A stretch of DNA of 64,000 nucleotides from Azospirillum oryzae (GTDB taxonomy: Bacteria > Pseudomonadota > Alphaproteobacteria > Azospirillales > Azospirillaceae). A program made the translations under genes and the position numbers. The DNA is taken from NCBI RefSeq assembly GCF_900177515.1, contig NZ_FXAK01000007.1:1844501-1908500 (forward strand). Direction: 5' to 3'. Positions 22,467 to 49,914 of this stretch are shown here, piece after piece; position 1 is the stretch's first letter, and every line of letters starts with the position of its first letter. A model generated the notes under the pieces. The model was not told where the DNA came from and did no database searches. It saw only the letters and a program-made list of their open reading frames with translations.

Positions 22467-22515
22467 GCCCCCACCTAACCTCCCCCGCTGGGCGGGGGAG
22501 GGTTAGGGTGGGGGC
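22467..22515. repeat. REP-like GC-rich hairpin between convergent genes
   Basis: The left arm contains ACCTAACCTCCCCCGC and the right arm GCGGGGGAGGGTTAGGGT, closed by a 3-base loop (TGG). The arms differ only by two extra G residues on the right. The same sequence bounds a larger element at 33191-33373. It lies between the converging ends of the MBL gene and the TRAP binding protein gene, so it may act as a bidirectional transcription barrier. Confidence 0.8.
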
Positions 22516-22526
22516 AATACTTGCCC

Positions 22527-36967: not shown

Positions 36968-36980
36968 GGCAGAATCTGCC
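36968..36980. promoter_or_regulatory. flgF: Candidate FlbD-type enhancer upstream of flgF
   Basis: GGCAGAATCTGCC is a perfect 5-bp inverted repeat around AAT. Its centre (36974) is 84 bp before the first G of the -24 element. Similar 13-mers occur at the same distance upstream of flgI and fliK. Confidence 0.65.
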
Positions 36981-37055
36981 CGGCATCCCCTGCCCCACCG
37001 GGCGGGAACACCCCCGACTTGCCCGGACTCCGTGGATTTCCGGCACTTCCCGGAG

Positions 37056-37073
37056 TTGGCACGCCGCCTGCAA
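37056..37073 (+). promoter_or_regulatory. flgF: Sigma-54 promoter of flgF-flgG-flgA-flgH
   Basis: TTGGCACGCCGCCTGCAA has GG (37058-37059) and GC (37070-37071) exactly 10 bases apart, and TGGCACG matches the -24 consensus fully. Transcription would begin near 37083, about 50 bases before the flgF ATG. Confidence 0.88.
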
Positions 37074-37134
37074 TACCCTTTTCGCCGGTCGGACGCTGTC
37101 GCCCGATCCGTTCGCAAGGTGAAGAGGCCGCAAG

Positions 37135-37857
37135 ATGGAAAATTCGATCTACGTCGCCCTGTCGCGCCAGATGGCGTTGCGCCGCGAGCTGGACGTTACG
37201 TCGAACAACATCGCGAACATGAACACGACCGGCTACAAGAACCAGCGGATGCTGTTCACCGAATTCCTGGAAAAGCCCGGCCTGCACGAGAAGGTCAGCT
37301 TCGTCCAGGACCGCGCGGTGGTTCGCGACCTCGCCAACGGCGCCATGACCCAGACCGGCAACCCGCTGGATCTGGCGCTGACCGGCCAGGGATACTTCAC
37401 CGTCGATACCGCCAGCGGCCCGCGCTACACCCGCGCCGGCAATTTCCGCCTGAACGACCAGCGCCAGCTGGTGGATGCCGGCGGCCTGCCCGTCCTGGCC
37501 AACAACGGCCAGCCCATCACCATTCCGGCCGGCACCAGCGACGTGAAGGTCAGCGGCGACGGCACCGTTGCCACCGAACTGGGTCCGGTCGGCAAGCTGA
37601 ACATCGTCACCTTCAAGAACGAGCAGTTGATGACCGAGGTCGGCAACGGCCTGTATGTCAGCGACGAGCAGCCGGAGCCCGCCCCGGCCGAGACGAAAGT
37701 GGCACAGGGTTTGCTTGAGGGTTCTAACGTGAAGCCCGTGGTCGAGATGACGCAGATGATCGAAATCCAGCGCCAGTACATGTCCGCCCAGCGGATGATC
37801 GAAAACGAGCACGAGCGTATCCGCACGATGATCCAGCGTCTGGGCCGGACGGCCTGA
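37135..37857 (+). CDS. flgF: Flagellar basal-body rod protein FlgF
   Basis: The 240-residue rod protein begins MENSIYVALSRQMALRRELDVTSNNIANMNTTGYK-like, the conserved N-terminal flagellar rod motif. It ends with the C-terminal coiled segment VVEMTQMIEIQRQYMSAQRMI. The central GQGYFTVDTASGPRYTRAGNF is typical of FlgF and FlgG. It forms the proximal rod. AGAGG lies 7 bases before the ATG. It is the first gene of the rightward unit flgF-flgG-flgA-flgH, preceded by a strong sigma-54-like promoter. Confidence 0.97.
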   Translation: MENSIYVALSRQMALRRELDVTSNNIANMNTTGYKNQRMLFTEFLEKPGLHEKVSFVQDRAVVRDLANGAMTQTGNPLDLALTGQGYFTVDTASGPRYTRAGNFRLNDQRQLVDAGGLPVLANNGQPITIPAGTSDVKVSGDGTVATELGPVGKLNIVTFKNEQLMTEVGNGLYVSDEQPEPAPAETKVAQGLLEGSNVKPVVEMTQMIEIQRQYMSAQRMIENEHERIRTMIQRLGRTA

Positions 37858-37888
37858 ACCAGACCGACGACGAGAGGAGAAGACCACA

Positions 37889-38674
37889 ATGCGCAGCCTC
37901 GCCATCGGCGCCACCGGCATGATCGCCCAGCAGCTCAACGTCGAGACGATCTCCAACAACATCGCCAACTCGACCACCACCGGCTACAAGAAGCAGCGGG
38001 CCGAGTTCCAGGACCTGCTGTACCAGAATTTCCGCCGCATCGGCTCGACCTCGTCGGATGCCGGCACCGTGGTGCCGACCGGCGTGCAGGTGGGCGCCGG
38101 CGTCCGCGTCGCCGCGGTCGCCCGCGTGCTGGAACAGGGCAACCTGAACATCACCGACAACAAGTTGGACGTGGCGATCAACGGATCGGGCTATTTCCAG
38201 GTGACGCTGCCCAGCGGCGACACCGCCTATACCCGCGCCGGCAACTTCAAGCTGTCGCCGGAAGGCATGATCGTCACCGCCGACGGCTACCCGGTCCAGC
38301 CGAACATCACCATCCCGACCGACGCCGTCGACATCTCGATCAACTCGTCGGGCGAGGTGCTGGTGAAGCTGGACGGCCAGACCGCCACCCAGAATGTCGG
38401 CCAGCTCCAGCTCGCCACCTTCGCCAACGCCGCCGGCCTGGAAGCCACCGGCGACAACCTGTTCCTGGAATCCGGCGCGTCGGGCCAGTCGGTGACCGGC
38501 AACCCCGGCGCCCCCGGCTTCGGCCGCGTCACCCAGGGCGCGCTGGAGACCTCGAACGTCAACGTGGTGCAGGAGATCACGACCCTGATCACCGCCCAGC
38601 GCGCCTACGAGATGAACTCCAAGGTCATCAAGACCACCGACGAGATGATGCAGCAGGCCAGCCAGATGAAGTAA
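37889..38674 (+). CDS. flgG: Flagellar distal rod protein FlgG
   Basis: The 261-residue distal rod protein starts MRSLAIGATGMIAQQLNVE and has the ISNNIANSTTTGYKKQRAEF motif. The FlgG-specific stretch QNFRRIGSTSSDAGTVVPTGVQVGAGV is characteristic and absent from FlgF. The C-terminus VQEITTLITAQRAYEMNSKVI completes the rod fold. GAGGAG lies 9 bases upstream of the ATG. It is 31 bp after flgF in the same operon, and flgA follows 60 bp later. Confidence 0.98.
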   Translation: MRSLAIGATGMIAQQLNVETISNNIANSTTTGYKKQRAEFQDLLYQNFRRIGSTSSDAGTVVPTGVQVGAGVRVAAVARVLEQGNLNITDNKLDVAINGSGYFQVTLPSGDTAYTRAGNFKLSPEGMIVTADGYPVQPNITIPTDAVDISINSSGEVLVKLDGQTATQNVGQLQLATFANAAGLEATGDNLFLESGASGQSVTGNPGAPGFGRVTQGALETSNVNVVQEITTLITAQRAYEMNSKVIKTTDEMMQQASQMK

Positions 38675-38734
38675 CGGCGCATGGAGTAATCCGGGCGCCG
38701 CCTCGCTTCAGCCTTCACATCGGGAATTACCGCC

Positions 38735-39511
38735 ATGATCCGCCACCTCGCCAACCGTCGCTTCTCCGCCCTGATCCTCGGCGCCGCCCTGCTGACCGCT
38801 CCGGTCGCGGTGCAGGCCGCCACGGTCGCTGCGGTTCCGGCCGCTGGCGTCGCGGCCCCGGCGCCCGACGTCGTCTATGGCATGCCGCATGTGGAGGCGG
38901 TTCTGTCGGATGCGCTGTCGCGGGTCATCACCGCCGGCCGGCTGCAGATGGAGCTGGACAACCGCGCGGTCGAACTGCGCGCGCCGCAGGGCGCCGGCGG
39001 GCTGGCGGTGGAAAACCTCTATTACAGCCCGGTCCAGGGCCGCTTCGCCGCGGAGATCGTGGTGACCGGCAGCCAGGTCCGCCTGCCGGTGTCGGGCCGC
39101 GCCTTCGGCGTGGTGCAGATCCCGGTGCTGTCGCGCCGCGTCCTGCCCGGCGACATCATCGGCCCGGGCGACATCGACTGGCAGGACATGCGCGCCGACC
39201 AGACCACCAGCGACACCGCCGCCACCGACGCGCAACTGATCGGCATGACGCCGAAGCGCGGCGTGTCCACCAACCAGCCCGTTCGCCTGCGCGACCTGCA
39301 ATCGCCGCGCATGGTCGACAAGGGCGCCATGGTCACCATCACCTTGTCGACGCCGTCCATGACGCTGACCACCCAGGGCAAGGCCCTGCAGGACGGCGGC
39401 AAGGGCGAGGTCATCCGCGTCGTGAACACCCAATCCAACCGGATCGTCGAAGCGACGGTCGCAGGCCCCAACGTCGTCGCCGTGGCAAAGCCCGGCACCA
39501 TCGCGCAGTAA
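38735..39511 (+). CDS. flgA: Flagellar P-ring assembly chaperone FlgA
   Basis: The 258-residue secreted protein has a signal peptide (about 1-29, ending VQA). The C-terminal SAF domain begins about residue 130 with VPVLSRRVLPGDIIGPGDIDW and continues through TPKRGVSTNQPVRLRDLQSPRMVDKGAMVTI. FlgA guides FlgI assembly into the periplasmic P ring. It lies between flgG and flgH. Its ribosome-binding site is weak, so coupling to the upstream message may matter. Confidence 0.96.
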   Translation: MIRHLANRRFSALILGAALLTAPVAVQAATVAAVPAAGVAAPAPDVVYGMPHVEAVLSDALSRVITAGRLQMELDNRAVELRAPQGAGGLAVENLYYSPVQGRFAAEIVVTGSQVRLPVSGRAFGVVQIPVLSRRVLPGDIIGPGDIDWQDMRADQTTSDTAATDAQLIGMTPKRGVSTNQPVRLRDLQSPRMVDKGAMVTITLSTPSMTLTTQGKALQDGGKGEVIRVVNTQSNRIVEATVAGPNVVAVAKPGTIAQ

Positions 39512-39524
39512 GGAGAAAGCTCCA

Positions 39525-40289
39525 ATGTCCGCCACCATGACCGCCCGCCTGATCCGCTTCGCGATGGTCGCCGCCGCCGCCACCTCCCTGACCGCCTGCG
39601 GCGCCGCCTCGCGCATCGCCGACATCGGCAAGGCCCCGGAGATGTCCAGCATCCAGGACCCGCAGGCCAAGCCCGGCTACCAGCCGATCAGCCTGCCGAT
39701 GCCGACCCCGCTGCCGACGGAGCGCAACCCGAACTCGCTGTGGCGGACCGGCGCCAAGGCCTTCTTCAAGGACCAGCGCGCGGCCAAGGTCGGCGACATC
39801 CTGACGATCAACATCTCCATCGCCGATCAAGCCAAGCTGTCGAACGAGAGCAAGCGGTCGCGCGCCAACACCGAGAAGGCCGGCATGCCGAGCCTGTTCG
39901 GCCTGGAAGGCGCCACGCTGAGCCGCGTCCTGCCGGCCGGCGCCTCGGCCTCCAGCCTGGTGGACCTGTCGAGCGACACGTCGAACGACGGCAAGGGTTC
40001 GGTGAACCGCAACGAGCAGATCGACCTGAAGGTGGCGGCGCTGGTGGTTCAGTCCCTGCCCAACGGCAATCTGGTCATCCAGGGCCGCCAGGAGGTCCGC
40101 GTCAACTACGAGCTGCGCGACCTGCAGATCCACGGCGTGATCCGTCCGGAAGACATCACCGCCCAGAACACCATCAGCTACGAGAAGATCGCCGAGGCCC
40201 GCATCTCCTACGGCGGCCGTGGCCAGATCACCGACGTCCAGCAGCCGCGCTACGGCCAGCAGCTGTACGACATCATCATGCCGTTCTGA
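39525..40289 (+). CDS. flgH: Flagellar L-ring protein FlgH
   Basis: The 254-residue outer-membrane lipoprotein has a lipobox LTAC with the acylated Cys at 25. The FlgH core includes NSLWRTGAKAFFKDQRAAKVGDILTINISIADQAKL, then LPNGNLVIQGRQEVRVNYELRDLQIHGVIRPEDI and GRGQITDVQQPRYGQQLYDIIMPF. It forms the L ring around the rod in the outer membrane. AAGGAG precedes the ATG by 9 bases. It ends the operon; flgI, its P-ring partner, is 7.4 kb away across an accessory block. Confidence 0.98.
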   Translation: MSATMTARLIRFAMVAAAATSLTACGAASRIADIGKAPEMSSIQDPQAKPGYQPISLPMPTPLPTERNPNSLWRTGAKAFFKDQRAAKVGDILTINISIADQAKLSNESKRSRANTEKAGMPSLFGLEGATLSRVLPAGASASSLVDLSSDTSNDGKGSVNRNEQIDLKVAALVVQSLPNGNLVIQGRQEVRVNYELRDLQIHGVIRPEDITAQNTISYEKIAEARISYGGRGQITDVQQPRYGQQLYDIIMPF

Positions 40290-40506
40290 GGACGACCGAC
40301 CTAACGGTGGCGGGAGCGGGGCCATGGGGGAGGAGTTCCCCTGTGGCCCGGTCGTGTTGCAGGTGGTCGTGAACTCCGGCATCGGCATTGATGTCGGAAG
40401 CTCGGCGCGATACGGACGGGTCGGCAATTGCTGCCGCGCGGTGGGTTGTGCCGGGGCGATGTTGCCGGGCCGTCCATTCCTGATAACGGGCAAGCACGGC
40501 GGCGGT

Positions 40507-40698
40507 TCAGCCTTCCAGCGACGGCCGGGATGTCGCCGTGAATCCGTCCATCATGCCCACCGCCATGTTGCCGCCGATGCGCACCAAGGCCGGTCCGATA
40601 AGTTCGGTCGCCCGGCGGTAAGCCTCGCGCTGGGCAACGCAGTCGATCAGATCAGCCGCGTTGGTGATGCTCTGGGACAAGGTGAGGTCACTCGTCAT
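40507..40698 (-). CDS. Small unknown protein, 63 residues
   Basis: This short gene has a very good ribosome-binding site, GAGGAG 7-8 bases before the ATG at 40698. The product is soluble, with one helix-prone stretch (NAADLIDCVAQREAYRRATELIGPALVRIGGNM) and a single Cys. No family is recognised. It begins the leftward half of the accessory block after flgH, about 220 bp from the flgH stop. The strong translation signal and normal codon use argue that it is real. Confidence 0.6.
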   Translation of the reverse strand: MTSDLTLSQSITNAADLIDCVAQREAYRRATELIGPALVRIGGNMAVGMMDGFTATSRPSLEG

Positions 40699-40941
40699 CG
40701 TTCATCTCCTCGGACAAGCCATGATCGGCAGGACGAGGATGACCATACGCACCACCACATTAATCCGCTGTTGCGTGCTTCACGATCTCAGCGCGCATGC
40801 TGATGGCGCTTGCGGCCCTGACAACCGGGAAAACCACAACCGGGAAAACGCCGGTCCGGTTCGGTGGGAGCGAAGCTGCCGACCGTCACGGGGAGAGTGG
40901 CGTACCCCCAGGCCGCAAGCACCACATTTTGCGGTTCGTCT

Positions 40942-41940
40942 TTACACCGGCAGCGGATTGGCCATTGCCACGGGAACGGCGATCTGCCGGCTGTTCATAC
41001 CCTCGAAATCCACCGTCTTCAGGTCCAGGCTCCAGGGCAGTGGAGAGGCGGCCATGCGGATGGTGAGGACGCGGTTGGTCAGATCCTTCACCACCACCCA
41101 CTGGGTATAATCGCACTCCACCGTCCCGTCGGATTTGCGGGCACGCACCGTGCCCTTGGGGATATCGACGGCGTTCAGCAGGTGGAAGGCAAGGCTCTGC
41201 GCCTCGGCCGCGGTCGCGGGCTGGTTGGCGAACTGCTTCAGAAGAGCCGTGCGGATGAAGCGGGCGGGCGGCGTCGCGTTTCCGGGAAGCCCGGCCAGTC
41301 CGGTCCCATGGCCGGGACGGGAGACGGTCAGGTCGCCGACGGTCATCGGGTCAGCGTCCCAGGGGGTCAGGCTGACATAGTTCTGCAGATTGGTCAGATG
41401 CCAGGGGAAGGTCGGCAGATTGGTCAGCACCTTCACCGGGTTTTCGCTGATCACCGGCTGGCCGCCGAGGAATTCGATGACGATGCTGTTGCCGGCGGCG
41501 TCGTGAACCGGGAAATGCAGCGGCCCGGCCTTCGCCACCCACTGGTCGCCGACAACCCGGATCGCGCCGCTTTCCAGCGCCTGCCGGACCTCCGCCACCG
41601 TGGCGCAGTTGCCCAGAAGCCAGTCGACGAAGAACCCGCAGAAGACGTTCGTCGCCTTGGCGTCGGGCGCCTGATACTCCGATCCGGGCAGCCAAAGCGC
41701 GCCGGTGGACAGGCCCTGGCTGTTCACGCCATCGGAGCAGATCGGCAGACCGAAGGAGGTCACGCCGACATAGCCGTATTTCGGGACCAGATGGAGCTTG
41801 TCCTCCAGCCATCCCACCAGTCCGGCCGATTTGCCCGGCGCCCGTACGATCAGGGCGCCTTTCAGGTCGATGCCGAACTCCATGCTGCGGCCGTTGACGA
41901 CCGTTCCATCAGCCGCCTCCACCAGAAAATCCGTGCACAT
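40942..41940 (-). CDS. Linear amide C-N hydrolase (choloylglycine hydrolase/penicillin V acylase family)
   Basis: The 332-residue Ntn-hydrolase begins MCTDF, so removal of Met exposes the catalytic Cys2. The family Arg is in NGRSMEFG (about 17-24). GVTSFGLPICSDGVNSQGLSTGALWLPG and VVGDQWVAKAGPLHF are typical substrate-pocket blocks, and a late Asn/Arg pair appears in DLTNRVLTIRM. There is no signal peptide, so it is probably cytoplasmic, unlike secreted acylases. Substrates could be bile salts, penicillin V, N-acyl homoserine lactones or other linear amides. GGGGA lies 9 bases before the ATG. It is the only gene in its small leftward unit. Confidence 0.9.
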   Translation of the reverse strand: MCTDFLVEAADGTVVNGRSMEFGIDLKGALIVRAPGKSAGLVGWLEDKLHLVPKYGYVGVTSFGLPICSDGVNSQGLSTGALWLPGSEYQAPDAKATNVFCGFFVDWLLGNCATVAEVRQALESGAIRVVGDQWVAKAGPLHFPVHDAAGNSIVIEFLGGQPVISENPVKVLTNLPTFPWHLTNLQNYVSLTPWDADPMTVGDLTVSRPGHGTGLAGLPGNATPPARFIRTALLKQFANQPATAAEAQSLAFHLLNAVDIPKGTVRARKSDGTVECDYTQWVVVKDLTNRVLTIRMAASPLPWSLDLKTVDFEGMNSRQIAVPVAMANPLPV

Positions 41941-42029
41941 GGTTGTATTTCCCCGTCTGAATGACTCTCACAACGGGAAAATATCAACGCGACAATCGCT
42001 TTCAAAAATATTCTGGACTGCATACCATT

Positions 42030-42069
42030 CAAAAAGAAACAGCCCGGCCTCCTGCATCGGGAGCCGGGC
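42030..42069 (-). terminator. Intrinsic terminator downstream of the 54-residue protein gene
   Basis: GCCCGGC pairs with GCCGGGC on the minus strand, extended by three to four more pairs past a one-base bulge, then a U-rich tail (TGTTTCTTTTTG). It is 26 bases past the stop at 42095. Confidence 0.7.
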
Positions 42070-42094
42070 CGTCTTGCCTTGGGAAGGCTGCCAC

Positions 42095-42259
42095 CTACTG
42101 GTAGCCGCCTTCGCGGGCACGGTCCTTGGCCGCCTCTTCCTGGGCCTTCTCGGTGACCCGGCTGATCTTGCCGCCACCGGCCTTTCCGGCATCGGCAGGC
42201 TTCTGCGGCGTTTCGCTGCGGTCGGCGTCGGCTGGATTCTGGTTGGGCTGGTCGGCCAT
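42095..42259 (-). CDS. Very hydrophilic 54-residue protein
   Basis: The ATG at 42259 has GAGGAG 7 bases upstream and the frame ends at a TAG (42095). The product begins MADQPNQNPADADRSE and ends AAKDRAREGGYQ. Asp, Glu, Lys, Arg, Gln and Ala dominate and there is no Trp, Phe or Cys, so it is probably disordered with one short helix (SRVTEKAQEEAAKDRAREG). An intrinsic terminator follows closely, giving a compact gene. The family is not recognised; its composition resembles stress-related hydrophilic proteins. Confidence 0.65.
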   Translation of the reverse strand: MADQPNQNPADADRSETPQKPADAGKAGGGKISRVTEKAQEEAAKDRAREGGYQ

Positions 42260-42345
42260 CTTGCTGCTCCTCGGTCGTTCTTCCGACTGGCGATGAGGAG
42301 GAAACAGCGGCGGCCGGAGATCGTCGCGGGAGAAGGCCGGGGACC

Positions 42346-42492
42346 TCAGCCGGCCGACCGACCGGTCTCGGCGTCGCTTTCGCCATCGGCACGGTCGAGG
42401 GCCGCATTGATCTGGTCAAGCGTGCGGCCGCAGCCGGTGCAGACGTCGCGGTCGATGGCACACATGCCCAGGCAATCGGGATCGTCGCTCAT
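42346..42492 (-). CDS. DUF1289-type small cysteine protein, 48 residues
   Basis: The product begins MSDDPDCLGMCAIDRDVCTG and continues with CGRTLDQI. The C-x3-C-x6-C-x2-C pattern followed by GRTLDQI is the DUF1289 signature, small probable metal-binding proteins of unknown function. An upstream in-frame ATG at 42504 is an alternative start. The C-terminal 20 residues are acidic and variable. It lies 86 bp upstream of the 54-residue gene on the same strand and diverges from the ATP-grasp gene. Confidence 0.75.
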   Translation of the reverse strand: MSDDPDCLGMCAIDRDVCTGCGRTLDQINAALDRADGESDAETGRSAG

Positions 42493-42651
42493 GGCAGTGG
42501 GCATTCCCTACGGTTGGCGGTGCGGACCCATCCCTATCGGAAAGCAGTTTTGATCTCAAGTGTCGGGGGTGGAGGCATAGGCGGAATGGGTTGCGGTCAG
42601 GATGCTTAGGGTATAAAGCATCCTCTCTATCCACTCCCCGCGAAGTTTCGT

Positions 42652-43782
42652 ATGCCAACGGCATTGCTGGTGTCCTGCGCGATGTATCGTCACGGCACCG
42701 CAAGAATGCCCGCCGCGCTGAAAGCGGCAGGATTTCGCGTCTTTGCCATCTTCCCCCGGAATTCCCTGCTCGAGTTCAGCGATCATGTCGACGGCAGGCA
42801 TCCGTTCGCCGCGGGAATGCCGGTCGACGACCTGACGGTCACTGCCGCGCGTGCGGCGGCACAACTGGGTGCGGACATCGTCATCGGTTGCGAGGAAAGC
42901 GCTGTCCGGGTGCTCGGCTTGGCCGGCCGCCTGCTCGAACGGCTGGCGGGGGACAGCGCCGATGCACGCAGGCTACGCTTCCTCCAGGGCTGGTACGGCG
43001 ACGTCTGCTGGGAAGAGGCGCGCTCGCGCTGCGTGGAACTCGCGGCGGAGGCCGGCATTCGGACGCCACGTCAGGTCCTGGTCGATCCACGGCGCCTCGG
43101 CTCAAACGACCTGTCCGGGCTCGGCGCACCGCTTCTGCTGAAATATGACGGCAGTTCCGCGGGCCGCGGGGTTTTTCTGGCATCCGACGCCCGGCACGCC
43201 ACCGTTATGGTGGCAGAACTGGAACAGACGAGCGCGTTTCCAGCCGGCCGGCGGCTCGTCGCGCAGGAGTTCGTGCGCGGGCGGGCGGCGTCGGTGTCGT
43301 TCTGCGCGCTGGACGGACGGATGCTGGAGGGGTTCGCCTATACCGTCCTGCAGCACCAGCCGGAGCCCTTCGGCCCCGCCTCGGTGATCGAATTGGCTGA
43401 CCTTCCGCCTTTGATGGAGATGGCCCGCAGCATGGTGGAGCTGACGCGCTACTCCGGCTTTGGCGGCATCGACGCCATCCTGCCGGAGGACGGCGGCCCG
43501 CCCGTTTTCCTGGAGTTCAACGCCCGCCCGACCCAGACCACCCATCTCGGCAGTCTGGCGGGCAGCGACCTGTGCCGGGCGATGGCCTGCGCGCTGGACG
43601 GCCGGCCCTATGAAGGCATGTTCGGCCGGACCCCCGGCAAGACGGTTGCCCTGTTCCCGGCGGAATGGGCCCGCGATGCCAACAGCCGTTTTCTGACCGC
43701 CGCCCACCACGATGTGCCTTGGACCGAACGGCGGATGACCGCGGCGATCCTGAACATCACGCCACAGTTGCACCCCGCCTGA
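42652..43782 (+). CDS. ATP-grasp domain protein, probable carboxylate-amine ligase
   Basis: The 376-residue protein has a Rossmann-like N-terminal domain (MPTALLVSCAMYRHGTARMP) and an ATP-grasp core. The nucleotide-binding segment is APLLLKYDGSSAGRGVFLAS, with VAQEFVRGRAASVSFCALDG next. The metal-binding end is PVFLEFNARPTQTTHLGSL, with the Glu and Asn in place. ATP-grasp enzymes join a carboxylate to an amine or thiol through an acyl-phosphate. No second enzyme of a known pathway is next to it, so the substrate is unknown. Its ribosome-binding site is weak. The downstream gene converges. Confidence 0.85.
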   Translation: MPTALLVSCAMYRHGTARMPAALKAAGFRVFAIFPRNSLLEFSDHVDGRHPFAAGMPVDDLTVTAARAAAQLGADIVIGCEESAVRVLGLAGRLLERLAGDSADARRLRFLQGWYGDVCWEEARSRCVELAAEAGIRTPRQVLVDPRRLGSNDLSGLGAPLLLKYDGSSAGRGVFLASDARHATVMVAELEQTSAFPAGRRLVAQEFVRGRAASVSFCALDGRMLEGFAYTVLQHQPEPFGPASVIELADLPPLMEMARSMVELTRYSGFGGIDAILPEDGGPPVFLEFNARPTQTTHLGSLAGSDLCRAMACALDGRPYEGMFGRTPGKTVALFPAEWARDANSRFLTAAHHDVPWTERRMTAAILNITPQLHPA

Positions 43783-43786
43783 CCGG

Positions 43787-44005
43787 TCATTGCGGCGGCT
43801 GGTCCAGCGACAGTTCGCCGGTAACCTCGTGCGTCAGGTCGATACCGTCCACCGTCAGCACCATGCGGACCGGCAGGGACTTCATCCCGTCCAGCTTGCC
43901 TTCCGCCAGCGCGCGGCCGACCGCCAGTTCGATCTCCCGCTGGGAGGTGACGCCGACCTGCTTGAGGAATTTGCGCAGGTCGAGGTTGAAGATCTCGTTG
44001 TCCAT
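43787..44005 (-). CDS. DUF6494-type small protein, 72 residues
   Basis: GGAGG lies 6 bases before ATG 44005. The product starts MDNEIFNLDLRKFLKQVGVT and continues SQREIELAVGRALAEGKL, a helical block of the DUF6494 kind. A short beta-like C-terminal part (LPVRMVLTVDGIDLTHEVTG) follows. No function is known. It ends 4 bp from the stop of the converging ATP-grasp gene. The XRE regulator upstream on the same strand is 86 bp away. Confidence 0.75.
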   Translation of the reverse strand: MDNEIFNLDLRKFLKQVGVTSQREIELAVGRALAEGKLDGMKSLPVRMVLTVDGIDLTHEVTGELSLDQPPQ

Positions 44006-44091
44006 GTCCGGCCTCCGAATTGGGAACCGCTGTCGAGCGTTCCGTTCCGAACCCCTGCAAAGCGGCGTTGGTTCCATGGGGCAGCCGTCCC

Positions 44092-44349
44092 CTATTCTGG
44101 CGGCGGCTCGCCGGGATGGAGCACGCCCGGCCCCCCGTCCTCCCGCGTGACCAGCAGAAGGCCGGCGGCGGTGAAGGCCGTGGCCAGCAGGGTTTCGGTG
44201 CTTCGGTGCAGGGCATGGCGCCCCTTTTCGAAGTCGCGGATGGTCCCGCGGGACACCGTCGCCCGTTCGGCAAGCTCCTCCTGCGTCCAGTCCAGGAAGC
44301 CGCGGGCCGCACGGCACAGCCCCGGAGTCAAAACACCTTTCGTGGGCAT
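44092..44349 (-). CDS. XRE-family helix-turn-helix regulator, 85 residues
   Basis: ATG 44349 has GGAGA 6-7 bases upstream; an ATG 27 bases earlier lacks one. The product is a single Cro/C1-type HTH (about 10-65): LCRAARGFLDWTQEELAERA, then TVSRGTIRDFEKGRHALHRST. The last 20 residues are a Pro/Gly-rich tail. It has no sensor domain. Single-HTH proteins of this kind often act as local repressors. It is divergent from ybaL, with about 125 bp between the starts, so ybaL is a candidate target. Confidence 0.85.
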   Translation of the reverse strand: MPTKGVLTPGLCRAARGFLDWTQEELAERATVSRGTIRDFEKGRHALHRSTETLLATAFTAAGLLLVTREDGGPGVLHPGEPPPE

Positions 44350-44476
44350 ATTTTTCTCCGGAAAAAGCTCCGCCATAAGCGTTGAAGTTGGTCATTTCCA
44401 CCACAATATGTGCATGACCACCCCGGAATCCAAGCTCCTTCCGCGCCCTTCCCCCCGCCGCCGGAGATGCCGCCGC

Positions 44477-46174
44477 ATGCCCCATCACGTCCCCCTGATC
44501 GCCACCATGGTGGCCGCCATCGTCCTGGCCTTCGTCTTTGGCGCCTTGGCCCACCGGCTGCGCCTGTCGCCGCTGGTGGGATATCTGCTTGCCGGCGTCG
44601 CAATCGGCCCCTTCACCCCGGGCTTCGTCGGCGACATGCAGCTGGCGTCGCAGTTGGCGGAGATCGGGGTGATCCTGCTGATGTTCGGCGTGGGGCTGCA
44701 TTTCTCGCTGGACGACCTGATGAAGGTACGGGCGATCGCAGTGCCCGGCGCGGTGGTGCAGATCGCCATCGCGACGGCGATGGGTTGGGGATTGGCCAGT
44801 TTCCTGGGCTGGAGTCTGGCAGCCGGGCTGGTGTTCGGGCTGGCCCTGTCGGTGGCCAGCACGGTGGTGCTGCTGCGCGCGCTGGAGCAGTTGAACCTGT
44901 TCCGGACCGAACGGGGGCGGATCGCCATCGGCTGGCTGATCGTCGAGGATCTGGCGATGGTGCTGGCGCTGGTGCTGCTGCCGCCGGTATCCCGCATGCT
45001 GGAAAGCGGCGGCGGGATGGACGGCGAGGTGCTGTTGTCGCTGGCGTGGACGCTGGGAAAGGTGGCGCTGTTCGTCGCCCTGATGCTGGTCGGCGGCCGG
45101 CGGGTCGTGCCCTGGGTGCTGGACCGCATCGCCCGCACCGGCTCGCGCGAACTGTTCACCCTGTGCGTGCTGGCATTGGCGCTCGGCATCGCCTATGGCT
45201 CCGCCACCCTGTTCAGCGTGTCCTTCGCGCTGGGCGCCTTCTTCGCCGGGATGGTGCTGAACGAATCCGACCTCAGCCACCGGGCGGCGGAACAGACCCT
45301 GCCCCTGCAGGACGCCTTCGCCGTGCTGTTCTTCGTGTCGGTCGGTATGCTGTTCGACCCGGCGGTGCTGACCCGGTCGCCCTGGGCGGTCCTGGCGACG
45401 CTGGCGATCATCCTGCTGGGCAAGTCGGTGGCTGCCTTCGGTCTGGTTCTGCTGTTCCGTTATCCGCTGCGCACCGCGGTGACGGTGGCGGTCAGTCTGG
45501 CGCAGATCGGCGAATTCTCCTTCATCCTGGTGGCGCTGGGCATGCAACTCGGCATCCTGCCGGAAGAGGGCCAGGGTCTGATCCTGGCGGGCGCCCTGCT
45601 GTCGATCACCGCCAACCCGCTGCTGTTCGCCGCGGTCCAGCGCCTGTTCCCGGACGAGGCGGAGCCGCTGCCGCCGGCCGACACAGCGCCGGAACTGCGC
45701 GATTACCAAGCCTTGAGCGGCCATGTCATCGTCGTCGGCCATGGGCGTGTCGGCCGCTACGTCACGCAGGCTCTGCTGGCGGAAGACCGGCCGCTGGTGG
45801 TGATCGACCTTCAACGTGAACGGGTGAAGAGCCTGCAGGCGGCGGGCGTGCGGGCGATCTACGGCAATGCCAATGCCGCCGGAATCCTGGAGCGCGCCGG
45901 GGTACAGGGTGCCTCGCTGCTGCTGGTCACGGTTCCCGACGCGCTGGAGGGCGGCGGTGTCGTCCAGCAGGCCCGATCGGTGAATCCGTCCATCGCCATC
46001 GCCGCCCGCGCCCACAGCGACGAGGCCGTGGCCCATCTCGACCGCACCGGCGCCGACGCCGTCTTCATGGGCGAGCGCGAGATCGCCCGACGGATGATCG
46101 ACTATGCCGGCCACGCCGCTGGTGATGGGGACGGGGACGAGGCCGATGGAGCCGGCGTGCTGGCGGCGACCTGA
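44477..46174 (+). CDS. ybaL: YbaL/KefB-type cation:proton antiporter
   Basis: From ATG 44477 the protein has 565 residues, close to E. coli YbaL (558), and starts the same way (MPHHVPLIATMVAAIVLAF). Twelve or so membrane segments form the Na+/H+ exchanger fold, with SPLVGYLLAGVAIGPFTPGF, ILLMFGVGLHFSL and AIGWLIVEDLAMVLALVLLP. The C-terminal RCK/TrkA-N domain (about 415-550) has GHGRVG for nucleotide binding. It probably mediates K+ or Na+ efflux gated by nucleotides or thiol adducts. No KefF/KefG-like ancillary protein is adjacent. Confidence 0.94.
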   Translation: MPHHVPLIATMVAAIVLAFVFGALAHRLRLSPLVGYLLAGVAIGPFTPGFVGDMQLASQLAEIGVILLMFGVGLHFSLDDLMKVRAIAVPGAVVQIAIATAMGWGLASFLGWSLAAGLVFGLALSVASTVVLLRALEQLNLFRTERGRIAIGWLIVEDLAMVLALVLLPPVSRMLESGGGMDGEVLLSLAWTLGKVALFVALMLVGGRRVVPWVLDRIARTGSRELFTLCVLALALGIAYGSATLFSVSFALGAFFAGMVLNESDLSHRAAEQTLPLQDAFAVLFFVSVGMLFDPAVLTRSPWAVLATLAIILLGKSVAAFGLVLLFRYPLRTAVTVAVSLAQIGEFSFILVALGMQLGILPEEGQGLILAGALLSITANPLLFAAVQRLFPDEAEPLPPADTAPELRDYQALSGHVIVVGHGRVGRYVTQALLAEDRPLVVIDLQRERVKSLQAAGVRAIYGNANAAGILERAGVQGASLLLVTVPDALEGGGVVQQARSVNPSIAIAARAHSDEAVAHLDRTGADAVFMGEREIARRMIDYAGHAAGDGDGDEADGAGVLAAT

Positions 46175-46180
46175 AACGAC

Positions 46181-46209
46181 GAAAGCGCCGGTCGGGGACC
46201 GGCGCTTTC
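46181..46209. terminator. Perfect hairpin between convergent ybaL and dksA
   Basis: GAAAGCGCCGGTC and GACCGGCGCTTTC form a perfect 13-bp stem around a GGG loop, 6 bases after the ybaL stop. The T-run is inside the stem base in both orientations, so it could stop transcription from either side. Confidence 0.75.
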
Positions 46210-46302
46210 GAATCCGTCGGTGCTACTTCCGGCGAAACGCACGTCCCCCGACCCGGCGACAGGCGCCGGGAAGGCCGTGATCCACCAGAAGACGGCGCGG
46301 CG

Positions 46303-46722
46303 TCAGTCGTCGCGCTGGGTCCGTTCCATCCGCTCGTGACGCTCCTGGGCCTCCAGGCTCAGCGTCGCGATCGGACGGGCATCCAGCCGGCGCACGGAGA
46401 TGGGATCGCCCGTCTCCTCGCAATAGCCGTAGCTGCCGTCGACCAGACGCTCCAGCGCGGCGTCGATCTTGGAGATCAGCTTGCGTTCGCGGTCACGGGT
46501 GCGCAGTTCCAGCGCGCGGTCGGTCTCCGCCGAGGCGCGGTCGGCGATATCCGGTTCCTGGATACCGCCTTCCTGGAGGCTGTTCAGCGTGCCGGTCGAT
46601 TCCGCAAGAAGCTCGGCGCGCCAGCGCAGCAGCTTCTGGCGGAAATACTCCCGCATGATCGGGTTCATGAACTCCTCGTCTTCCGACGGGGAATAGTTCT
46701 GGGGCAGAAGCGGCGACGTCAT
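46303..46722 (-). CDS. dksA: DksA-family RNA polymerase-binding factor lacking most zinc cysteines
   Basis: The 139-residue protein shows the DksA coiled coil (EYFRQKLLRWRAELL to RERKLISKIDAALERLVDG), with the Asp residues at the tip in PDIADRASAETDRA. The zinc-finger region reads YGYCEETGDPISVRRLDARP and then ATLSLEAQERHE, so only one of the four usual Cys remains. This Cys-poor form is common in alphaproteobacteria. DksA works with ppGpp at RNA polymerase. It is 272 bp downstream of fliX on the same strand, a gene order also known from relatives. Confidence 0.93.
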   Translation of the reverse strand: MTSPLLPQNYSPSEDEEFMNPIMREYFRQKLLRWRAELLAESTGTLNSLQEGGIQEPDIADRASAETDRALELRTRDRERKLISKIDAALERLVDGSYGYCEETGDPISVRRLDARPIATLSLEAQERHERMERTQRDD

Positions 46723-46994
46723 CCGAAAGCATCCAGCGAAAAAGGGGTGATCCGGGCGGCGCGGAGTATAGGCACGCCACGGCGCGACCGCAACCCATTG
46801 GTTCGCCCCTAAAACGACCAAACAAGCCCTTGGAATAAAAAAGATTTGTCAGAGTGGCACATTGGCCGCGCCGTACCGCTACCCCATCGGGGCATGTGAC
46901 CCGTCGGTCATGGCGCCACGGGTCGGGCCGCGCCCTGCCCCGCCAGACTGCCGCCGAACGGCCACGGGGCATCGGCCCAACTGCTCGAGAGGAC

Positions 46995-47420
46995 TCAGGA
47001 GGTAAGCTTCGCCAATTCGACCTGCGCCCGCAGATCGATCTCGTCCAGGATTTCGGCAAGACCGGGATCGTCGACCTGGGCACGGCGCGTCTGCACCACC
47101 TTCGCCAGATCGACCAGCTTCTGCATCGACAGGGTACCGGACAGCAGGCCGTGCTGGATTTCCTCCAGCCGGTCGAGCATCTCCTCCGCCCGCATCTTGC
47201 CGCGCGACGCACGCGCGGTGGCGTCGTCGGTCGCGTCGACCTCCTGCAGGGCCAGCACGCCCGAAACCCCGGCCGTGGCGGCGGTGCCGCTGACGCCATG
47301 GGCCGAGCCCGCCTCCCCCACCAATTGCTTGGAGAACGCGGCGCCGGACGAGCCTTCGGACTTGCCGGTGCGGCGTACCGAACCGCTGCCGCGTATGTTA
47401 CCGGAGCCTTCGACTTTCAT
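46995..47420 (-). CDS. fliX: Flagellar regulator/assembly protein FliX
   Basis: The 141-residue protein starts MKVEGSGNIRGSGSVRRTGK. A variable middle leads to the conserved C-terminal domain: LQEVDATDDATARASRGKMRAEEMLDRLEEIQHGLLSG, then LDEIDLRAQVELAKL. In Caulobacter, FliX is a trans-acting partner of the sigma-54 activator FlbD, linking flagellar assembly to late gene expression. The divergent placement from flgI is the same as in Caulobacter. A CtrA-like box lies about 60-75 bp upstream. FlbD itself is not in the window. Confidence 0.93.
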   Translation of the reverse strand: MKVEGSGNIRGSGSVRRTGKSEGSSGAAFSKQLVGEAGSAHGVSGTAATAGVSGVLALQEVDATDDATARASRGKMRAEEMLDRLEEIQHGLLSGTLSMQKLVDLAKVVQTRRAQVDDPGLAEILDEIDLRAQVELAKLTS

Positions 47421-47481
47421 GATCCGTGCAACCGTTTGCAGTAAAGGATGCGTAAACGCGCGCACTGTAGATGGACCAACC

Positions 47482-47496
47482 TTAACATCCGGTCAA
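47482..47496 (-). promoter_or_regulatory. fliX: CtrA-like box upstream of fliX
   Basis: TTAA-N7-TCAA on the plus strand (TTGA-N7-TTAA on the fliX strand) matches the CtrA consensus TTAA-N7-TTAA with one mismatch, 62-76 bases before the fliX ATG. Confidence 0.6.
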
Positions 47497-47511
47497 GGTT
47501 TGCCGCAATCG

Positions 47512-47524
47512 GGCAAAATTTGCC
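47512..47524. promoter_or_regulatory. flgI: Candidate FlbD-type enhancer upstream of flgI
   Basis: GGCAAAATTTGCC is a perfect palindrome around a central A (47518), 84 bp before the first G of the -24 element. A further TTTGCC half-site lies at 47499-47504. Confidence 0.65.
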
Positions 47525-47599
47525 GACCGGCTGTGACCGAAAGGCGCCATTTCCCGGGCGTTTTTCAGGACATGAGCAGAAGGCCGCCGTTTTCGGCAT

Positions 47600-47617
47600 C
47601 TGGCACGGCGTTTGTAT
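47600..47617 (+). promoter_or_regulatory. flgI: Sigma-54-like promoter of flgI-flgJ-flgN
   Basis: CTGGCACGGCGTTTGTAT has a perfect TGGCACG -24 block and TTGTA at -12, with 10 bases between GG and the -12 G. Only the -12 C is replaced by T. The flgI ATG is 34 bases downstream. Confidence 0.75.
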
Positions 47618-47650
47618 AGGGACGGGCACGAGTTCAGGAGTGTCCGCGTC

Positions 47651-48793
47651 ATGATTTCCACCACCCTTCGCCTTCTGCGCCGCCGCGCCGTCCTGGCCGT
47701 GCTGACCGCCCTGCTGGCGTTCGGGACCCCGGCCGCACCGGCACTGGCCGCGTCCGCCCGTATCAAGGACATCGTGGATGTCGAGGGCGTGCGCGACAAC
47801 ATGCTGATCGGCTATGGCCTCGTGGTGGGTCTGAACGGCACCGGCGACAGCCTGAACAACTCGCCCTTCACCGAGCAGAGCCTGACCGGCATGCTGGAAC
47901 GGATGGGTGTCAACACCCGCGGCACCAACCTGCGCACCAAGAACGTGGCGGCGGTGATGGTGACGGCGACGCTGGGCGCCTATGCCGCACAGGGCACGCG
48001 CATCGACGTGACCGTGTCGGCGATGGGCGACTCCAAGAGCCTGCTGGGCGGCACCCTGCTGGTCACCCCGATGATGGGCGCCGACGGCGAGGTCTATGCG
48101 GTGGCCCAGGGGCCGATCGCGGTCTCGGGCTTCACCGCCCAGGGTCAGGGCGCCAGCGTGACCCGCGGCGTGCCGACCTCCGGCCGCATCTCCTCCGGCG
48201 CCATCGTGGAGCGGGAAATCCAGTTCTCGCTGGCCGAGTTGCCGGTGCTGCGGCTGTCCTTGCGCAATCCGGACTTCACCACCGCCCAGCGGGTGGCGAC
48301 CGCAATCAACATCCAGCTGCGCGGCAACCGCGCCCAGGCGACCGATCCGTCCTCCGTCCTCATCAACGTACCGGAGTCGCGTCGCGGCGACGTGGTGGGG
48401 CTGGTGACGGAGATCGAACAGCTGCGCATCACCCCCGATCAGGTCGCCCGCGTGGTGGTGGACGAAAAGTCCGGCGTGATCGTGATGGGCGAGAATGTGC
48501 GCATCTCCACCGTCGCCATCGCCCAGGGCAACCTGACCATCCGCATCACGGAAACCCCTCAGGTCAGCCAGCCCGGCCCCTTCAGCCAGGGCCAGACCGC
48601 GGTGGTGCCGCGCACCGACATCCAGGTCGACGAACAGTCCAACAACCGCCTCGCCGTGATGAATTCCGGGGTGACCTTGCAGGAGTTGGTACAATCCTTG
48701 AATGCGCTTGGAGTGGGTCCGCGGGACATGATCGCCATTCTCCAGTCGATCAAGGCCGCCGGAGCCCTGCAAGCCGAGATCGAGGTGATCTGA
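47651..48793 (+). CDS. flgI: Flagellar P-ring protein FlgI
   Basis: The 380-residue secreted protein has a signal peptide (about 1-34, ending ALA-ASA). The conserved start of the mature chain is RIKDIVDVEGVRDNMLIGYGLVVGLNGTGD. Further blocks are MGVNTRGTNLRTKNVAAVMVTA, GTLLVTPMMGADGEVYAVAQG and VVDEKSGVIVMGENVRIS, and the end LQSIKAAGALQAEIEVI is intact. It polymerises into the P ring. CAGGAG lies about 11 bases before ATG 47651. Its stop overlaps the flgJ start (TGATG). Confidence 0.97.
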   Translation: MISTTLRLLRRRAVLAVLTALLAFGTPAAPALAASARIKDIVDVEGVRDNMLIGYGLVVGLNGTGDSLNNSPFTEQSLTGMLERMGVNTRGTNLRTKNVAAVMVTATLGAYAAQGTRIDVTVSAMGDSKSLLGGTLLVTPMMGADGEVYAVAQGPIAVSGFTAQGQGASVTRGVPTSGRISSGAIVEREIQFSLAELPVLRLSLRNPDFTTAQRVATAINIQLRGNRAQATDPSSVLINVPESRRGDVVGLVTEIEQLRITPDQVARVVVDEKSGVIVMGENVRISTVAIAQGNLTIRITETPQVSQPGPFSQGQTAVVPRTDIQVDEQSNNRLAVMNSGVTLQELVQSLNALGVGPRDMIAILQSIKAAGALQAEIEVI

Positions 48794-49182
48794 TGTCCAT
48801 GAGCCCCGCCCTTTCCGCCGCTTCGGCCCCGCGCAGCGCCTCGCCAGCCTCTTCACTGGTGGAGCGTGCCCAGGCCGCCGGGTTCGGCGTGCGCACCCTG
48901 GCAAAGATTTCCGATCTGGAGGCCAAGACCGACCCGGCAAAGCTTGCCCAGCTGCGCAAGTCCGCCAACGAGTTCGAGAGCCAGTTCGTGTCGCAGATGC
49001 TGAGCCCGATGTTCGAGGGGATCGAGACCGACGAGACCTTCGGCGGCGGGCGCGGCGAGGAAATGTTCCGGCCGATGCTGGTCGAGCAGTTCGGCAAGCA
49101 GATCACCCAGCGCGGCGGCTTCGGCATCGCCAAGCAGGTTTACGCAGAGCTTCTTCGCGCCCAGGAGGCCAGCCATGGATAA
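48793..49182 (+). CDS. flgJ: FlgJ N-terminal-type rod-binding protein
   Basis: The 129-residue protein contains only the FlgJ rod-binding domain: KLRKSANEFESQFVSQMLSPMF-like (about 55-75) and GGGRGEEMFRPMLVEQFGKQI, ending RGGFGIAKQVYAELLRAQ. The C-terminal muramidase domain found in enteric FlgJ is absent, as usual in alphaproteobacteria, so a separate enzyme must open peptidoglycan. It overlaps flgI by one base and the next gene by eight bases. Confidence 0.93.
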   Translation: MSMSPALSAASAPRSASPASSLVERAQAAGFGVRTLAKISDLEAKTDPAKLAQLRKSANEFESQFVSQMLSPMFEGIETDETFGGGRGEEMFRPMLVEQFGKQITQRGGFGIAKQVYAELLRAQEASHG

Positions 49183-49684
49183 GGTCGACGTCCGTTTCCC
49201 CCAGCCGGCAAAGCCGGCCGCCAACCTGCCGAAGAACGCGCAGGAACGCGCGGTGGCGCTGGTCGAGCTGATGGGCCGCCTGACCGCCCTGCTGGAGCGC
49301 GAGGCCGCAGCCGTGCGTGCCCGCCGCCCGGCCAAGGAGTTGGCGCAGATCGTCAAGGACAAGCAGCCGATGACGCTGGTCTATGAAGAGATCAGCCGCA
49401 TGCTGCGCGTCGACCGCGACGGGCTGATGGGTTTGCCGCAGGAGCTGAAGACCGCGCTGAAGGATGCGACCGGCAGGCTCTATGCCGCCACCGCCGACAA
49501 TGCGGAGGCCCTGCGCATCGGCGGCGAGGCGCAGAAGGTGATGGTCGACACCGTCGTCACCGTCATCACCCGCCAGCAGAAGGCGCCGACCACCGCCTAT
49601 GCCGCCCACATGGGCGGGGGCCGCGGCTATTCCCCGACGCCCAGCGGGCCGCGCACCTCGGCGGCGCTGAACACCCGGCTCTGA
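49175..49684 (+). CDS. FlgN-like flagellar protein, probable chaperone
   Basis: The 169-residue soluble protein is mostly helical. The region ERAVALVELMGRLTALLEREAAAVRARRPAKELAQIVKDKQPMTLVYEE looks like the FlgN helical hairpin, followed by LRIGGEAQKVMVDTVVTVI and a Gly/Pro-rich tail ending LNTRL. FlgN chaperones the hook-filament junction proteins FlgK and FlgL. Identity with FlgN is inferred from size, helices and position after flgJ; sequence conservation in this family is low. Its start overlaps flgJ by 8 bases, and an intrinsic terminator follows. Confidence 0.65.
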   Translation: MDKVDVRFPQPAKPAANLPKNAQERAVALVELMGRLTALLEREAAAVRARRPAKELAQIVKDKQPMTLVYEEISRMLRVDRDGLMGLPQELKTALKDATGRLYAATADNAEALRIGGEAQKVMVDTVVTVITRQQKAPTTAYAAHMGGGRGYSPTPSGPRTSAALNTRL

Positions 49685-49725
49685 TCCGAACAGCCTTCAT
49701 CCGTGACTGCCGAGATCTTTCGGAC

Positions 49726-49756
49726 GGCCGCCTCTCTCCACAGGGGCGGCCTTTTT
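49726..49756 (+). terminator. Intrinsic terminator of flgI-flgJ-flgN
   Basis: GGCCGCC and GGCGGCC pair over 7 bp (9 with a G-U and one more pair), followed by TTTTT. It lies 42 bases after the stop of the FlgN-like gene. Confidence 0.85.
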
Positions 49757-49810
49757 CTTTGGGGCTTTTCCTCACGATCGGGCTGCTGCGGCAAGAAAGG
49801 CCCCGCACCC

Positions 49811-49823
49811 GGCGGAAATTGCC
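49811..49823. promoter_or_regulatory. fliK: Candidate FlbD-type enhancer upstream of fliK
   Basis: GGCGGAAATTGCC, within a CCGGC-N7-GCCGG repeat (49809-49825), is centred 82 bp before the -24 GG. It matches the GGC-N7-GCC elements of flgF and flgI in spacing and purine/pyrimidine pattern. Confidence 0.6.
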
Positions 49824-49896
49824 GGTCGGACGCGCGCCATGGGGCGGGAACTGCCGCCCTGCACCGTATGGATGGCCCGATGGCTTGGGGTCGCAA

Positions 49897-49914
49897 CTGG
49901 CCCGCCTGTTGCAT
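49897..49914 (+). promoter_or_regulatory. fliK: Sigma-54 promoter of fliK-flgD
   Basis: CTGGCCCGCCTGTTGCAT has GG at 49899-49900 and GC at 49911-49912, 10 bases apart, with a perfect TTGCA at -12 and one mismatch at -24. The fliK ATG is 54 bases further on. Confidence 0.85.

Follow-up and report, generated by a model that had tools for sequence, protein, structure and literature searches.

The window analysed here is a stretch of 64,000 nucleotides from Azospirillum oryzae (contig NZ_FXAK01000007.1, positions 1,844,501 to 1,908,500), in which three 13-bp palindromes lie upstream of predicted sigma-54-type promoters of the flagellar genes flgF, flgI and fliK. These palindromes are very probably enhancers of the ftr type for the activator FlbD. 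Their spacing of 82-84 bp is a single rung of a ladder with steps at about 61, 72, 83, 94, 105, 116 and 127 bp: across related bacteria, the distance between FlbD site and promoter changes mostly by about one helix turn. We estimate a probability of roughly 0.86 for the explanation as a whole, according to which FlbD sites would support an FlbD oligomer that contacts the promoter by looping in a register of ~11 bp, with FliX gating FlbD. Looping, gating by FliX and the identity of the bound protein as FlbD are the inferred parts of this explanation.

Palindromes paired with sigma-54-type elements

The initial annotation described the three palindromes (GGC-N7-GCC) and their distances of 84, 84 and 82 bp between palindrome centre and first G of the -24 element, and both were borne out by direct reading of the sequence (Table 1). 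The promoter elements, predicted from sequence, have the form GG-N10-GC or GG-N10-GT. Among the main sites, that of fliK is the weakest (14.6 bits, vs 18.1 at flgF and 22.3 at flgI). Scores are from a site matrix with the consensus GGCA-N5-TGCC, trained on 41 flgI sites, none of them from the Azospirillum group; flgI sequence tests on the training loci are not independent of this matrix, and distances played no part in its building. Thresholds were chosen by hand, and six threshold pairs gave the same picture.

The palindrome alone is not rare; it is the combination with a sigma-54 element at a defined spacing that exceeds chance. The genome of A. oryzae (7.67 Mb in 10 contigs, numbered here with the prefix C) contains 64+60 matches to a loose palindrome and 57+51 to the reversed control. 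Combining loose GGC-N7-GCC with a sigma-54 pattern gave 33+34 matches vs 24+25 for reversed controls, mostly chance, and GGCA-N5-TGCC was used instead. The sequence GGCARWWWYTGCC occurs at nine distinct places (9+9 by strand, as it is palindromic) and its reversed control at 6+6; it is therefore the placement of the sites, not their number, that stands out. Seven of the nine places are upstream of sigma-54-type promoters, namely those of flgF, flgI, fliF, a flagellin gene on C9 (three places) and a gene at C5:306 kb (one place), so that six of the seven belong to flagellar genes. Of the remaining two, one falls inside a coding sequence; the other precedes, by ~45 bp, a small open reading frame (ORF) that lacks a promoter.

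The genome scan also confirmed the expectation that the motif would be found upstream of further flagellar genes: relative to the GG, the C9 flagellin gene has four sites at 63, 84, 105 and 123 bp, fliF has two strong sites at 64 and 85 bp, and flgE has two weak ones, of 8.4 bits and 8.6 bits, at distances of 70 and 91 bp, and in 80 related loci the motif precedes flgI, flgF, fliK and flagellin genes. Strict sigma-54 matches number 13 genome-wide. A site accompanies just two of them, at fliK and at C5:306 kb, and at the other 11 the best score is below 4 bits.

The related set comprised 80 flgI loci. A good sigma-54 element is present at flgI in 75 of them, 62 of which have a site of at least 12 bits, and the other five have no good sigma-54 element at flgI. 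Sites of 10 bits located 20-260 bp upstream number 83 in this set, while the reversed matrix gave none. Around the 271 sigma-54-like elements of the 80 loci, 12-bit sites are found upstream 166 times and downstream nine times. A site at 40-160 bp was obtained for 142 promoters, which by tblastn belong to flgI (61), flgF (37), fliK (15), flagellin genes (8) and fliX (1); the other 20 stayed unassigned, although by eye most resemble fliK, three a flagellin gene and one flgK.

The initial annotation proposed a comparison of the same promoters in close relatives, which were represented by 16 loci, one labelled Roseomonas genomospecies 6 and the others Azospirillum. The motif is retained together with the promoter at flgI (16/16), at flgF (12/12 where flgF was found) and at fliK (14/14 where the region was found, in a search that listed only elements having a site). 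A weaker site distal to the main flgI site is likewise present in all 16 loci, at 7.0-9.0 bits.

Distances between site and promoter mostly change by about one helix turn

The initial annotation had suggested a fixed helical phase. This holds in a broader sense: the spacing is not fixed at 82-84 bp and shifts mostly in steps of ~11 bp. The distances of the 142 promoters cluster at about 60, 71, 83, 94, 104, 116 and 126 bp, with most gaps between rungs empty; the ladder as described covers matches within 40-160 bp. When similar sequences are merged into 85 clusters, the distances are best fitted by a period of 11.0 bp (nR2 23.1), a value of nR2 reached by none of 20000 smoothed null draws. Among the 16 close relatives, the spacing is 83, 84, 94, 96 or 117 bp at flgI, 84-85 or 72-73 bp at flgF, and 71, 82-84, 90-95 or 103 bp for the strongest site at fliK.

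For a second data set no matrix was used: 153 genomes, sampled evenly across the class, were searched for GGCA-N5-TGCC with TGGCAYG-N6-GC located 60-121 bp further on. This search yielded 95 and 94 matches vs 10 and 13 for the reversed controls (summed by hand). The 77 genomes with a detected FlbD (E 1e-20 or better) gave a period of 11.1 (n=143, 0/20000 null draws). With one site per promoter, the second set has a period of 11.2 (n=125) and a phase of 6.1, vs 5.8 in the first set. The two sets pooled (n=203) give 11.1 bp, with a bootstrap 95% interval of 10.8-11.35.

Related species have indels in common, the clusters were formed by sequence similarity only, and at least three genomes other than that of A. 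oryzae are in both data sets (three were found on looking among 109 fetched class loci). The ladder might thus be an artefact of shared ancestry or of site picking and not a product of selection on helical phase, an explanation that we regard as very unlikely. The matrix was built without distances, and the second set is matrix-free and drawn from genomes labelled with 125 families. This set has the same period and phase, also after removal of the shared genomes found; when the Azospirillaceae are removed as well, 111 distances from 46 genomes still give a period of 11.1 and a phase of 6.2 (0/10000). In addition, the spread of flgI spacings given above is that of the 16 close relatives alone.

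The palindromes could also be repressor or architectural sites that share flagellar intergenic regions with the promoters, their spacing being incidental. Sites do exist without sigma-54 promoters, for example at fliF in other genomes, where they would repress by analogy with ftr4 of Caulobacter as described in the available text of PMC3930126. Against this, the sites lie upstream and rarely downstream of sigma-54 elements, and distances quantised at ~11 bp in two data sets would be needless for a site that makes no contact with a promoter. We consider this explanation the least probable of all.

Many promoters have more than one site. A second site of at least 7 bits is present in 87/142 promoters, compared with 9/142 for the reversed-matrix control, and the spacing of adjacent sites is 20-21 bp in 50/97 pairs; this measure replaced pair-offset scores, which were noisy. 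In Caulobacter, an IHF site is located between enhancer and promoter, a helper feature that we did not count as defining. IHF-like sites were found in this interval in 36/142 promoters vs 1/142 control stretches, all outside the Azospirillum group (36/98, vs 0/44 within the group), where they are mostly situated 20-34 bp upstream of the -24 GG. IHF was rejected as the cause of the ladder, as phase and strength are alike in promoters with IHF-like sites (R 0.59, n=36) and without them (R 0.61, n=106).

FlbD is the best candidate for the activator

The initial annotation attributed the palindromes to FlbD on the basis of Caulobacter biology and reported FliX in this region. FliX is indeed encoded in the window (PF10768; Table 1), and an flbD gene is present in the genome as well. 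It is located outside the window on C9, downstream of fliF and on the same strand, and codes for a protein of 519 residues with a degenerate receiver (Response_reg under the cut-off), a GAFTGA loop and a Fis-type helix-turn-helix. Of 30 FlbD sequences, 28 were read, and among these the DNA-binding helix, NRTHAANILGISIRTLRNKL, hardly varies. In the second data set, the spaced motif is found in 52/77 genomes with FlbD vs 23/76 without (Fisher 5e-6). The co-occurrence of motif and FlbD, the near-invariant helix and the site at the fliF-flbD operon make FlbD the best candidate, short of proof.

Several observations weigh against this assignment or against the generality of the ladder. Matches are present in the above 23/76 genomes with no detected FlbD, 14 of which have them at more than one promoter, and weaker phasing is seen in this group of 76 (p 0.026 for all 46 matches; p 0.0097 and R 0.42 for the 25 left after filtering). 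Missed FlbD genes could explain these observations. Under a first, strict palindrome criterion, 24/80 flgI loci had no good site. Two promoters of A. oryzae do not conform: the one at C5:306 kb is off the ladder, its sites being at 99 and 122 bp, while that of the C5 flagellin gene has only a weak site (9.3 bits at 119 bp). Finally, FlbD of A. brasilense has been related to lateral flagella (Chang et al. 2007, as cited in the available text of PMC3169532).

These points are relevant to the possibility that another NtrC-type sigma-54 activator binds the palindrome, FlbD merely accompanying polar flagella. Strong sigma-54 activator domains number 21 in the genome, and the matches in genomes lacking a detected FlbD, together with the report on A. 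brasilense, would fit such an activator. When 17 of the 21 activator proteins were searched in the 80 flgI loci, no match was obtained at E 1e-20. We nevertheless judge this possibility unlikely, although less so than the two explanations above: it accounts for neither the co-occurrence of FlbD and motif nor the near invariance of the recognition helix, the fliF-flbD operon itself has a site of at least 12 bits in 17/19 other genomes, and in Rhodospirillum centenum it is the polar system on which FlbD acts, according to the accessible part of PMC2890560. The activator at C5:461 kb was ruled out as FlbD by its neighbours, pspA and pspC.

With FlbD as the binder, the following mechanism can be proposed. 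FlbD, the NtrC-type activator of alphaproteobacterial sigma-54 flagellar promoters, would bind GGCA-N5-TGCC palindromes, its dimers occupying one strong site and often, on the same helix face, a second one at a distance of 20-21 bp. The dimers would assemble into an AAA+ oligomer that reaches RNA polymerase-sigma-54 at -24/-12 by looping out ~60-130 bp. As such a short loop would resist twisting, mainly spacings in the same register would be kept and indels would survive in steps of ~11 bp. FliX, encoded beside flgI, may gate FlbD as it does in Caulobacter.

The flgI enhancer is located between the divergent fliX and flgI genes (46995-47651), ~92-104 bp from the fliX start. If bound there, FlbD could also act on fliX, the gene of its own partner.

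The fliF-flbD operon

Outside the genus, 17 of 19 class genomes have a site of at least 12 bits upstream of fliF, and none of the 19 fliF promoters has a sigma-54 element scoring at least 16 at 36-130 bp downstream of the best site. TTAAC is present 9-20 bp downstream of the site centre in 7/19, and TTAA-N7-TTAA near a second site in two more. In one genome (locus L321), a sigma-54-like element lies further upstream, 256 bp before fliF. The fliF of other genera thus has an FlbD site, in some cases beside a CtrA-like TTAAC box, with no intervening sigma-54 promoter, which resembles the repressing ftr4 of Caulobacter.

The sample of the same genus comprised 41 genomes (30 loci and 11 fetched), all of which have at least one strong site at fliF. 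In 39 of them, a sigma-54-like element of the type CCGGCGCGG-NNN-TTGCA has its GG 64-66 and/or 85-87 bp from the sites. Both sites are in register in 38 genomes, L379 has the distal site only, and L376 and L380 have tandem sites with no sigma-54-like element. In A. oryzae, this arrangement is found in the region of C9 20815-20869, upstream of fliF-flbD, with the tandem GGCATAATTTGCC-N8-GGCAAAAACTGCC, a TTAAC box and the sigma-54-like element. The function of the element is uncertain, because its -24 part has no usual T (CCGG or TCGG).

The in-register sigma-54-like element of the same-genus fliF-flbD operon, absent from the 19 other fliF promoters, is possibly new. It leads us to suggest, tentatively and at somewhat less than even odds, that the sign of FlbD control has changed in Azospirillum, FlbD driving its own operon via sigma-54 once made and taking over from CtrA. 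If so, the 11-bp register would be a class-wide grammar that predicts activating vs repressing FlbD sites. The fliF case makes the evolutionary sign change of a regulator testable.

Lateral flagellar regions

No site reaches 12 bits in the flagellar regions of C3 and C10 (100 kb), which we read as the lateral system. Likewise, nine promoters of second fliF copies in the genus all lack both a 7-bit site and an in-register sigma-54-like element. In R. centenum, FlbD mutations disrupt polar and not lateral flagella (given as unpublished results in the available text of PMC2890560), and this fits the site-free lateral regions found here. In view of the link between FlbD and lateral flagella in A. 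brasilense, either the effect of FlbD on them is indirect or our reading is incomplete. According to the accessible portions of PMC12826043 and PMC8100600, rpoN is needed for both polar and lateral flagella in Azospirillum. A lateral system without FlbD-type sites requires either a different activator or indirect control.

Comparison with known systems

FlbD/ftr enhancers, FlbD in A. brasilense and an 11-bp ladder at qrr genes are already known. As described in the available parts of PMC3930126, PMC3096577 and PMC7064773, Caulobacter FlbD binds ftr sites, by which late genes are activated and fliF is repressed, with FliX as its partner. The system presented here shares with it the sigma-54 flagellar promoters, an NtrC-type activator that has GAFTGA and whose receiver is degenerate, the position of flbD downstream of fliF, the presence of FliX, and sites at both fliF and late genes. 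The likeness to ftr is one of descriptions, not of aligned site sequences. Unlike Caulobacter, the 44 Azospirillum-group promoters have no IHF-like site, and the fliF of the genus has an in-register sigma-54-like element.

For the qrr genes of Vibrio, 61 enhancers with loop lengths in steps of ~11 bp are described in the accessible text of PMC4740811. This LuxO-dependent system is similar in its tandem NtrC-type sites, its sigma-54 promoter and its looping over ~80-120 bp in ~11-bp steps. It differs in activator and gene class, and the present ladder concerns several genes and a whole bacterial class and has an estimated period. The pairing of LuxO with a qrr RNA gene does not apply here: 122/142 promoters precede flagellar genes or fliX, the other 20 being unassigned.

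Closer to A. oryzae, the flbD operon of A. brasilense and FlbD of R. centenum show the same fliF...flbD order and a need of FlbD for flagella, FlbD being reported as lateral-related in the former and as polar in the latter; the portions available of these reports (PMC3169532, PMC2890560) contain no binding-site or spacing analysis. The main texts of two reports on RpoN/RpoE-controlled Azospirillum flagella (PMC12826043, PMC8100600) do not mention FlbD. The literature searched, in which most subscription papers were missing, yielded no account of such a ladder at FlbD sites. The class-wide ladder and the fliF variant may therefore be additions.

The analysis provides a usable FlbD site matrix for Alphaproteobacteria. 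The placing of Azospirillum polar flagellar promoters under FlbD is a testable claim, contrary to the report on lateral flagella. Moreover, helical phasing is available here as a natural data set, in which the loop period of 11.1 bp can be compared directly with the tandem spacing of 20-21 bp for two turns.

Further sites in the window and the genome

Table 1. Candidate FlbD-type sites, predicted sigma-54-type elements and associated genes in the window
Feature	Position	Strand	Remarks
FlbD-type candidate site GGCAGAATCTGCC, upstream of flgF	36968..36980	+	centre-to-GG 84 bp; 18.1 bits
flgF sigma-54-type -24/-12 element TTGGCACGCCGCCTGCA	37056..37072	+	-24 first G = 37058
flgF	37135..37857	+	Pfam Flg_bb_rod, LlgE_F_G_D1, Flg_bbr_C
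fliX	46995..47420	-	Pfam PF10768 FliX, E 1.4e-40; divergent from flgI
Weak distal flgI site GTCAAGGTTTGCC	47492..47504	+	104 bp before GG; 20 bp from main site; 9.0 bits
FlbD-type candidate site GGCAAAATTTGCC, upstream of flgI	47512..47524	+	centre-to-GG 84 bp; 22.3 bits = matrix maximum
flgI sigma-54-type -24/-12 element CTGGCACGGCGTTTGTA	47600..47616	+	-24 first G = 47602
flgI	47651..48793	+	Pfam FlgI, E 1.2e-141 (frame)
Weak fliK site GGCAAGAAAGGCC	49790..49802	+	103 bp before GG; 21 bp from main site; 9.0 bits
FlbD-type candidate site GGCGGAAATTGCC, upstream of fliK	49811..49823	+	centre-to-GG 82 bp; 14.6 bits
Second fliK site GGCGGGAACTGCC	49843..49855	+	50 bp before GG; 10.6 bits
fliK sigma-54-type -24/-12 element CTGGCCCGCCTGTTGCA	49897..49913	+	-24 first G = 49899
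fliK	49968..51797	+	Pfam Flg_hook, E 2.4e-14 (frame); start codon picked by eye

The exact pattern GGCRRAAWYTGCC is found at four places in the window, the fourth being inside flgF (37438-37450, minus strand). With at most two mismatches it has 47 matches vs 23.5 expected, a number reached in 0/100 shuffles. Five further sites of at least 14 bits (22513, 25204, 37438, 40423 and 48936) have no sigma-54 element scoring 19; that at 25204 has one of only 18.5 at 68 bp. The strong palindrome at 22513-22525, GGCAATACTTGCC, scores 19.6 bits and coincides with the beginning of a 553-residue ORF that has no Pfam match; no sigma-54 element is near. FlgI is 98% identical to FlgI of Azospirillum sp. TSH64.

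Elsewhere in the genome, the small ORF preceded by GGCARWWWYTGCC codes for 76 residues (MGVSSIGGIGG...), and the site in front of it, at C1:563629-563641, is a perfect GGCAAAATTTGCC with no sigma-54 element; this copy is possibly a repressed target or due to chance. At C5:306243-306361, the two sites precede TTGGCACGCCGCTTGCT, which is ahead of a 323-residue ORF (MAIDATMIDSS...) with a YkuD-domain gene downstream. This ORF is a possible FlbD target off the helical ladder.

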